Shown here: in pieces, positions 31,409-37,138 of the stretch
How the letters are laid out: every line of letters begins with the position of its first letter
How positions within the stretch are numbered: the first letter of the stretch is position 1
Source of the DNA: Alphaproteobacteria bacterium
GTDB taxonomy: Bacteria; Pseudomonadota; Alphaproteobacteria; Micropepsales; Micropepsaceae
NCBI GenBank assembly: GCA_947475445.1
Contig: CANJLC010000001.1
Span: forward strand, 186,001-250,000
Length of the DNA: 64,000 bases
Direction: 5' to 3'
Notes under the pieces: model-generated
Databases searched by the model: none
The model's input: the letters and a program-made list of their open reading frames with translations, nothing else
Told to the model about the DNA's origin: nothing
Translations under genes and position numbers: made by a program

Positions 31409-32359
31409 ATGCATTATCTGGATTTTGAGCGTCCCATTGCCGAGCTGGAAGGCAAGATTGTCGAGCTGCGGACGCTCGCCCAGGCCGATCCCGCCATGGA
31501 TATCGATGCGGAAGTCGCAAAGCTGCAGACCCGCGCCGGGCAGATGGTCCGCGACACCTATGCAAGATTGTCACCCTGGCAAAAGGTGCAGGTGGCGCGC
31601 CATCCTGGCCGGCCGCACTTCCTGGATTATGCCCGGACAATCTTCGAGGATTTTTCGCCATTGGCCGGCGACCGCCAGTTTGGCGAAGACCAGGCTGTGG
31701 TGGCAGGACTGGCGCGCTTTCGCGGACGGCCCGTTGCCTTTATCGGTCAGGAGCGCGGCAACGATACCCAATCGCGCCTGAAGCACAATTTTGGCATGGC
31801 GATGCCCGAAGGCTATCGCAAGGCGATCCGCGTCCTTGAAATGGCGGACCGCTTCGGCCTGCCGGTGCTCAGCTTCGTGGATACGTCGGGGGCCTTCCCG
31901 GGCGTCACCGCCGAGGAACGCGGCCAGGCCGAAGCCATCGCCCGTTCGATTGATGCGGGCTTGTCCCTCAGGGCGCCCTTTATCGCCACCATCATCGGCG
32001 AAGGCGGTTCGGGCGGGGCCATCGCCATCGCCGCCGCCAACCGTGTCTATATGCTCGAGCATGCGGTCTATTCCGTGATTTCACCCGAAGGCGCCGCTTC
32101 CATCCTGTGGCGCAGCGCCGACAAGGCGCAGGAAGCCGCTACCGCGCTCAAGATCACGGCGCAGGATCTTCAGGAACTGAAACTGATCGACGCCATCATC
32201 CCCGAGCCAGAAGGCGGCGCCCATCGCGCCCCGCAGGCCACCATCAACGCGGTGGCCGACCAAATCGCGCGTGGCTTGTCCGAAATGGACGGCATGAGCG
32301 GCGAGCAATTTCTGAAATCGCGGCGTGAGAAATTTTTGGCCATGGGCCGCAGCCTCTAA
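31409..32359 (+). CDS. accA: Acetyl-CoA carboxylase carboxyltransferase subunit alpha
   Basis: A 316-residue AccA: LDFERPIAELEGKI at the start, GRPHFLDYA, FIGQERG, FGMAMPEGYRKA, SFVDTSGAFPGV, IGEGGSGGAIAI, and an EHAVYSVISPEGAASILWR core. It transfers carboxyl from biotin-BCCP to acetyl-CoA with AccD in fatty acid synthesis. A 104-bp gap after xerD probably carries its promoter. A hairpin follows the stop. Confidence 0.97.
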   Translation: MHYLDFERPIAELEGKIVELRTLAQADPAMDIDAEVAKLQTRAGQMVRDTYARLSPWQKVQVARHPGRPHFLDYARTIFEDFSPLAGDRQFGEDQAVVAGLARFRGRPVAFIGQERGNDTQSRLKHNFGMAMPEGYRKAIRVLEMADRFGLPVLSFVDTSGAFPGVTAEERGQAEAIARSIDAGLSLRAPFIATIIGEGGSGGAIAIAAANRVYMLEHAVYSVISPEGAASILWRSADKAQEAATALKITAQDLQELKLIDAIIPEPEGGAHRAPQATINAVADQIARGLSEMDGMSGEQFLKSRREKFLAMGRSL

Positions 32360-32409: not shown

Positions 32410-33366
32410 TTACTTGGCCAGCGAGAGGCTCAACGACGAGACCCAGCCCTTGTTGCCGACTTCGTCGGAAACTTCCCACCACACGCCATTCTTCTGGCCG
32501 GTGGGGTACAGGATCATGCCGGCATCCAGCGGACGCACGACCTTGGCGGTTTCGCTGGCGGTCTCGCGCAGCACGCCGGGACGCGACAGCGTCACGGTCT
32601 GCGACGGCGCATCCGCCTTGGCGTCGGTGGAAAGGCCGCCCATCTGCGAGACCATCTTGGTATAGGCGTCGATGTAGGCCAGGATCACGACCTTGCCGAT
32701 ATCGGTGTTCTGGTAGCTGCCGATGCCCGCCGCGCCGAAGCCGCCCAGGCCAAAGCCGCCGCCGCCCAGGCCAAAGCCCAAATCAGTCTTGGCGCCATGG
32801 CCTTCCGCCAGCACTTCCTGCTCGGTGGTGCGCACATTGGTTACCGTCAGCACCACATCGGCCGTGCTGCTGGACAGGCTGATGCTGCCGGCAATGGCGC
32901 CGGCGATGGGGCCAAACAGGCCGCCCACCAGGCCGCCGGCATTGAAGCCGCCCGAATTGGCGTTCTTGGAGGTGATGTCTGGGACCAGGATGTAATCCGC
33001 GGCGCGGATCTGGCCGCCGCCGATATTGGCGCCGCCCTGCAGCTGGCCTTCGCCGGCCAGGGCGCGTTCCTGCTGCGCCAGCGCGAAGCCGGCGCCGCGG
33101 TCCACAAGGGTGAAGCAGCCCGATTTCTGCACGAACACCTTGAGCAGAGCTTCCGGGGAGGCAAGCTTGAGATCGCTCCACCAGTTCTTTTCCGGCTCGC
33201 GCACGGCGATGCTGCCGATCTTGCGGGTGCAGGTTGGAATCTCGCCTTTCTTTTAGGCGATCTTGGAATCGGCAGATTGACCGATCTGGGCGAAAGACGG
33301 CGTCGCCAGGATAGTGGATGCAAGACCAAGCACAGCCGTCATGGCCGCGATTTTCGACAGACGCAT
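32410..33366 (-). pseudogene. CsgG/HfaB-like exported protein gene interrupted by in-frame TAA
   Basis: Read in one frame from ATG 33364-33366, the minus strand encodes MRLSKIAAMTAVLGLASTIL...FAQ, a normal signal peptide, then SADSKIA, then a TAA stop (33253-33255, codon 38), then KKGEIPTCTRKIGSIAVREPE and about 270 more codons without a break. The later part holds a CsgG-like region (FVQKSGCFTLVDRG, AADYILVPDI, VVLTVTNVRTTEQEVLAEGHG), a Gly-rich stretch, AYIDAYTKMV and a C-terminal SH3-like segment (GVLRETASETAKVVRPLDAG...GWVSSL). A good Shine-Dalgarno (AAGGGG) precedes the ATG. A GTG at 33204 could restart translation, but that product would lack export. It is a recent nonsense mutation, a read error or readthrough; the protein's function is unknown. 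Confidence 0.78.
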
Positions 33367-33497: not shown

Positions 33498-34432
33498 TTA
33501 CCACCAGCCCCGTTTTTTGAACCACAAAATCGGAATTACGGTCGACAGCACGATCAGGCCCAGGCCCCACAGATAGCCATACTGCCAGTCCAGTTCCGGC
33601 ATGAAATGGAAATTCATGCCGTAGATGCCAGCCACCAGCACGGGCGGAATGCCTGCCACCGATGCAATGGTGAGCACCTTGAACAGGTCGTTCTGCTCGG
33701 TGCTGATGAAGCCCAGCGCAGCGTCCAGCAGGAATTGCAGCTTGTCGGTCAAATGCACTTCATAATCCGTCAGCGATTGCACGTCGCGCCCCGCCATTTT
33801 CATGCGCGCCTTGATAGGAGGGTCCAGCCAATCGTCGCCATTTTCGCGCGCGAAGGGCATGGCCCGCTGCAGGACCAGCAATGTTTCACGCACATGCGAC
33901 AGCCGCTCACCCATGTCGCCGATCTCCACCAGCGTGGTGCGCAGCATGCGGCTGGTGCGCGCGATGTGGCGCGTGCTCTCCTGCATTTCCTTGTGGAAAA
34001 TGCGGTGCGAAATAGCCATGGCTTCGGCGCGCAATTCCTCCAGCCGGTCTGCGCTGTAATCCACCAGCGCTTCCACGATCACCATGAAAATGTCGGCCGG
34101 CGGGCGTGGGCGGCGGCTGACGCGCGCGGTGATGGCCTCGAAAGTGTGCAATTGGGCGAATCGGACAGTCACCAGGATGTCCTTGGTCAGGACGAAGCCC
34201 AGGGGCGAGGTAAGGTCTTCATCGCCCCCATTGTGCGGCGTCACCGGCACCGAAATGATGAAAGTCTCGTCCTCATATTGCAGGCGGCTGGAAAACTCGA
34301 TTTCCTCCAGCTGCTCGCGGGGCGGAATGTTCAGGCCGTAATCGCTGCACGCCTTGGCGATTTCTTCGCGGGTGGGATTGAACAGGTCAATCCAGACCGG
34401 CTTTTCCAGTGACGGATAAGCCGTAAGCGTCA

Positions 34433-34433
<1 letters not shown>
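33498..34433 (-). CDS. corA: CorA-family Mg2+/Co2+ transporter
   Basis: A 311-residue CorA-like channel: an N-terminal cytoplasmic domain, a long helix region (about residues 130-240) and two C-terminal helices, with the YGMNF selectivity motif between them (IAGIPPVLVAGIYGMNFHFMPE-like region). It ends in basic KKRGWW. Mg2+ uptake is the likely role, with Co2+ or Ni2+ as alternatives. Its ATG overlaps the secA stop as TGATG, so it may be translated after secA. Confidence 0.92.

Positions 34434-37138
<2,705 letters not shown>

Follow-up and report, generated by a model that had tools for sequence, protein, structure and literature searches.

An in-frame stop codon that probably marks a recent nonsense pseudogene in a CsgG-domain gene of an alphaproteobacterium

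The locus and its product

In the window, i.e. the whole stretch of 64,000 nucleotides that was analysed, a minus-strand gene for a CsgG-like exported protein is interrupted by a TAA codon (Table 1). Reading begins at ATG 33366, continues through MRLSKIAAMTAVLGLASTILATPSFAQIGQSADSKIA and meets the TAA at 33253-33255; 280 codons without a stop follow in the same frame and end with a TAA at 32410-32412. The original prediction, which described a signal peptide, about ten more residues, the TAA and then an open frame of some 280 codons, proved exact as a reading (the signal peptide being recognized by eye), and the unsplit product would be 318 residues long, as had been estimated. Stretches homologous to the N-terminal part occur in relatives. 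The flanking genes are presumably corA-like on the upstream side and accA-like on the convergent downstream side.

Table 1. Features of the csgG-like locus, in window coordinates
Feature	Position	Strand	Basis or remark
In-frame TAA	33253..33255	-	Codon 38 of the unsplit frame
5' part, 37 codons	33256..33366	-	Start codon, signal-peptide-like stretch (by eye) and about 10 further residues
Stop-to-restart segment, 16 codons	33205..33252	-	Alignment of relatives and structure model
Open body, 280 codons and stop	32410..33252	-	CsgG domain, weak SH3-like C-terminus
264-codon frame from GTG, first possible restart	32410..33204	-	No Shine-Dalgarno sequence by eye
Upstream neighbour in several congeners (taken to be CorA-like)	33498..34454	-	Locus comparison
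Convergent downstream neighbour in several congeners (taken to be AccA-like)	31409..32359	+	Locus comparison

A profile search placed the body in the Pfam CsgG family (PF03783) with 36 bits against a cut-off of 20.8, and two SH3 profiles matched the C-terminus, both below their cut-offs. The structure model, built from six sequences, was weak (mean pLDDT of 61); among PDB folds it came closest to the CsgG chains of 4uv2 (E 2.9e-05). Searching the PDB sequences with a profile gave a single match, at E 0.62. The protein therefore resembles the CsgG curli secretion lipoprotein in its above-threshold profile match and its best fold match, but it differs in having no lipobox cysteine past the signal peptide, in its weak SH3-like C-terminus and in the position of its gene within a secA-corA-accA neighbourhood. 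Cysteine is absent from residues 1-45, so that there is no lipoprotein signal with a cleavage-site cysteine, and neither CsgF nor curlin repeats (PF10614, PF07012) were matched anywhere in the genome, while E. coli was the one of 14 control genomes that matched in both searches. Identity as a curli secretin was rejected on these grounds, and the label "CsgG-like" of the original prediction holds at the level of the domain and fails beyond it. A second CsgG-domain gene, with an open frame, lies on contig C16 of the same genome. A literature search combining CsgG, SH3 domain and Alphaproteobacteria found nothing.

The stop codon, its age and its decoding

Comparison of the interrupted codon with its counterparts in relatives, as had been proposed along with the prediction, drew on 25 relatives, broken and partial copies included, three of which (G007, G030 and G047) are unaligned at this codon. 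The remaining 22 all carry a sense codon there (Arg, Gln, Lys, Glu or Asp), and none has a stop. Furthermore, wherever a congener has a single full-length match (19 congeners), the frame is unbroken to its stop, which places the unsplit frame beyond chance; the TAA disables what is a continuous frame among relatives, and the predicted splitting of the frame is borne out both by the codon reading and by these sense codons.

The claim that the frame is otherwise free of decay also stands, as the body beyond the stop displays no clear loss of constraint. The source genome (G000) departs from one of 70 otherwise invariant columns, compared with 0 to 5 in 24 other genomes (G047 was excluded from this count), and its differences from G001 number 49, 47 and 93 at the three codon positions over 277 codons. 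The mean dN of its csgG, 0.240, is the second highest of ten genomes (0.182-0.274 in the nine relatives), which counts against an ordinary recent pseudogene, although the source genome also ranks third highest of ten in corA and third highest of nine in accA, so that the whole lineage appears somewhat fast. Judged from these substitution patterns, constraint on the csgG body apparently persisted until very recently or continues today. Sense codons in all 22 aligned relatives, together with the lack of any clear loss of constraint, argue either for a very young stop or for a read error. The latter reading, in which the organism has a sense codon and an intact gene, is the less probable of these two but deserves to be taken seriously: the change is a single one in a frame that is otherwise perfect and not clearly relaxed in constraint, the assembly is a draft of 29 contigs, and an untouched body is as compatible with a read error, or with rescue of the gene, as with a recent pseudogene.

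An intact and constrained body is likewise what would be expected if the stop were regulated or leaky, the exported form being made by suppression at the TAA or through a programmed split. None of the 41 tRNAs found in the genome reads a stop; this list is incomplete, since it lacks four expected tRNAs across all contigs, Gln(TTG), Trp, Ile(GAT) and Ala(TGC), although the assembly is rated 98% complete; contig gaps are the probable cause. To that extent the list leaves room for such a mechanism. A pattern search for tRNA-Gln(TTG), based on a consensus, gave no match, which is weak evidence. Three genes carry the RF-1 domain, and the two that are full-length fit RF1 and RF2, an assignment made by length alone. 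TAA is an ordinary terminator that ends 128 of the 456 predicted frames in 464 kb of sequence, about a fifth of the genome. These observations, with the absence of a stop at this codon in the 22 aligned relatives, make a leaky or regulated stop improbable, and recoding of TAA was set aside as unlikely for the same reasons. Among the abstract openings and listings examined in a literature search on stop read-through, bacteria, pseudogene and UAA there was nothing on this gene. Four options had been offered in the original prediction, and the one that fits best is a very recent mutation; suppression and a designed split find no positive support in the relatives' codons, the tRNAs found or the two release-factor genes.

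Rescue by reinitiation would start from the GTG at 33204, which is, as predicted, the first ATG, GTG or TTG in frame past the TAA and lies 16 codons beyond it, and would give a cytoplasmic protein of 264 residues. The segment between stop and GTG contains Pro44, Cys46, Gly51 and Ala54, each identical in 25/25 relatives, along with four of the five residues that make up the first strand predicted by the structure model; Cys84, with which Cys46 may pair, is kept in 24/24 relatives. As these elements precede the GTG, the restart product would be devoid of the signal peptide, Cys46 and the greater part of that strand. No Shine-Dalgarno sequence is visible by eye at this codon. We consider a functional restart very improbable indeed.

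Loss of the gene within the genus

Of 60 relatives, 26 gave a match to the gene, and all but one of these 26 are congeners (25 of the 36). Search and synteny together divide the congeners into 19 with full frames, three with wrecks, four with cut or rearranged copies and ten without a match (including G017 and G019, with a completeness of only 82% and 74%). The wrecks are a frameshifted copy in G015, a remnant in G029 and a stub in G006 that was found by synteny, and the copies cut at contig ends or rearranged are those of G005, G009, G032 and G018. In the G018 copy (L019:1390-2508) the C-terminal third is disturbed by foreign-looking sequence, the result of rearrangement or misassembly. With no match in 10/36 congeners and three further wrecks, the gene is dispensable in related genomes. 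That several congeners have it broken by other routes makes a real mutation in the source genome more likely a priori and weighs against a read error.

The G006 stub (L107:1466-1605) has kept the ribosome site, the signal peptide and a terminator-like hairpin, while the body is deleted; it has a TAG of its own that lies, in the alignment, two codons past the TAA of the source genome. In the SecA tree G006 is the sister of G008, which has a full frame with a sense codon at the position of this TAG. Codons one base away from a stop make up 0.42 of the linker as against 0.23 of the body, about twice the proportion, so two stops close together require no special cause. The early stop could instead have been selected, with the locus making a short secreted peptide of the signal peptide and about ten residues; we find this barely credible, and equally so its corollary that two small-genome lineages arrived separately at such a peptide, the source genome through the TAA at codon 38 and G006 through the TAG and a deleted body.

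The order secA-corA-csgG-accA is present in G014, G015, G031 and G036; in G001 secA-corA-csgG is held and accA is unmatched in the 1.1 kb that remain to the contig end. A SecA tree of 32 rows, made by a quick method and covering 29 of the 36 congeners (G010, G011, G017, G018, G019, G026 and G027 fall outside it), identifies G009 and G025 as the genomes nearest to the source genome, which joins G009 with a support of 81 and both with a support of 99. In G009 and G025 the gene is unmatched between corA and accA, where gaps of 16 and 102 bases, respectively, are found.

A copy of the gene is nevertheless present in G009, in two contig-end pieces (C44 and C41; L112/L113) away from secA-corA-accA, and it was possibly moved, acquired or introduced as contamination. 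It does not pair with the copy of the source genome in the csgG tree, which is poorly resolved in this region. Because this copy persists, loss from the G009 lineage is not complete, a point that tells against the reading as a recent pseudogene.

Kuo and Ochman 2010 (PMC2916853) describe the fast removal of young Salmonella pseudogenes by deletion. Set beside such recently formed bacterial pseudogenes, the csgG-like case shows no difference in kind: there is one disabling change, the body is intact and relatives manage without the gene, and where the usual fate is deletion, the locus is already empty in two near relatives.

Other internal stops and the origin of the csgG stop

Two scans for internal stops, of 34 and 175 rows, did not list the csgG-like case; ten translated rows of the first were interpreted as junctions between genes or noncoding sequence, and the second often chose antisense shadow frames. 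In a scan of 464 kb that used a trained codon score, the case came 9th of 248. Of the eight rows above it, one (C1:136888) was judged to be a real internal stop and seven were taken as gene junctions, three from their translations and four from the row text alone; the scan, whose sensitivity is unproven, sought in-frame stops.

The stop at C1:136888 is a TAG in the gene of an exported trypsin-like protease (C1:136270-137919; L145:16270-17919), outside the window. Three distant relatives of this protein were found, two of which align across the stop, homology to the G051 and G038 proteins spanning the TAG, and no match to the gene was obtained at E 1e-20 in the 24 congeners searched.

With their different stops, TAA and TAG, both accessory genes have the look of ordinary pseudogenes. 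That the other isolated stop also lies in an accessory gene, whereas random errors would often fall in core genes, speaks against a read error, although no test can be built on two cases, and its being a TAG speaks against a leaky TAA.

The csgG-like gene is thus, in our judgement, likely to be an ordinary nonsense pseudogene of recent origin, an estimate that includes the short-peptide reading because the body would be dead in both. A single nonsense change would have hit a dispensable gene for an exported CsgG-domain protein, in the short linker that joins its signal peptide to the folded domain; with translation ending after 37 codons, no exported domain would be made, and the body would not yet have had time to decay. 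As the genus repeatedly loses the gene between corA and accA, the copy in the source genome would represent the first stage of a loss that, at this locus, the two genomes nearest to it have already completed. The stop itself, the relatives' sense codons, the undamaged body and the losses elsewhere in the genus are direct observations; from them we infer a genuine mutation in the organism, a gene that the source genome too can do without, and no rescue of its product.

An annotation should flag the gene as probably broken, and not as split or recoded. A single locus within a single genus presents gene loss at several stages: intact, with one stop, frameshifted, reduced to a stub, and empty.
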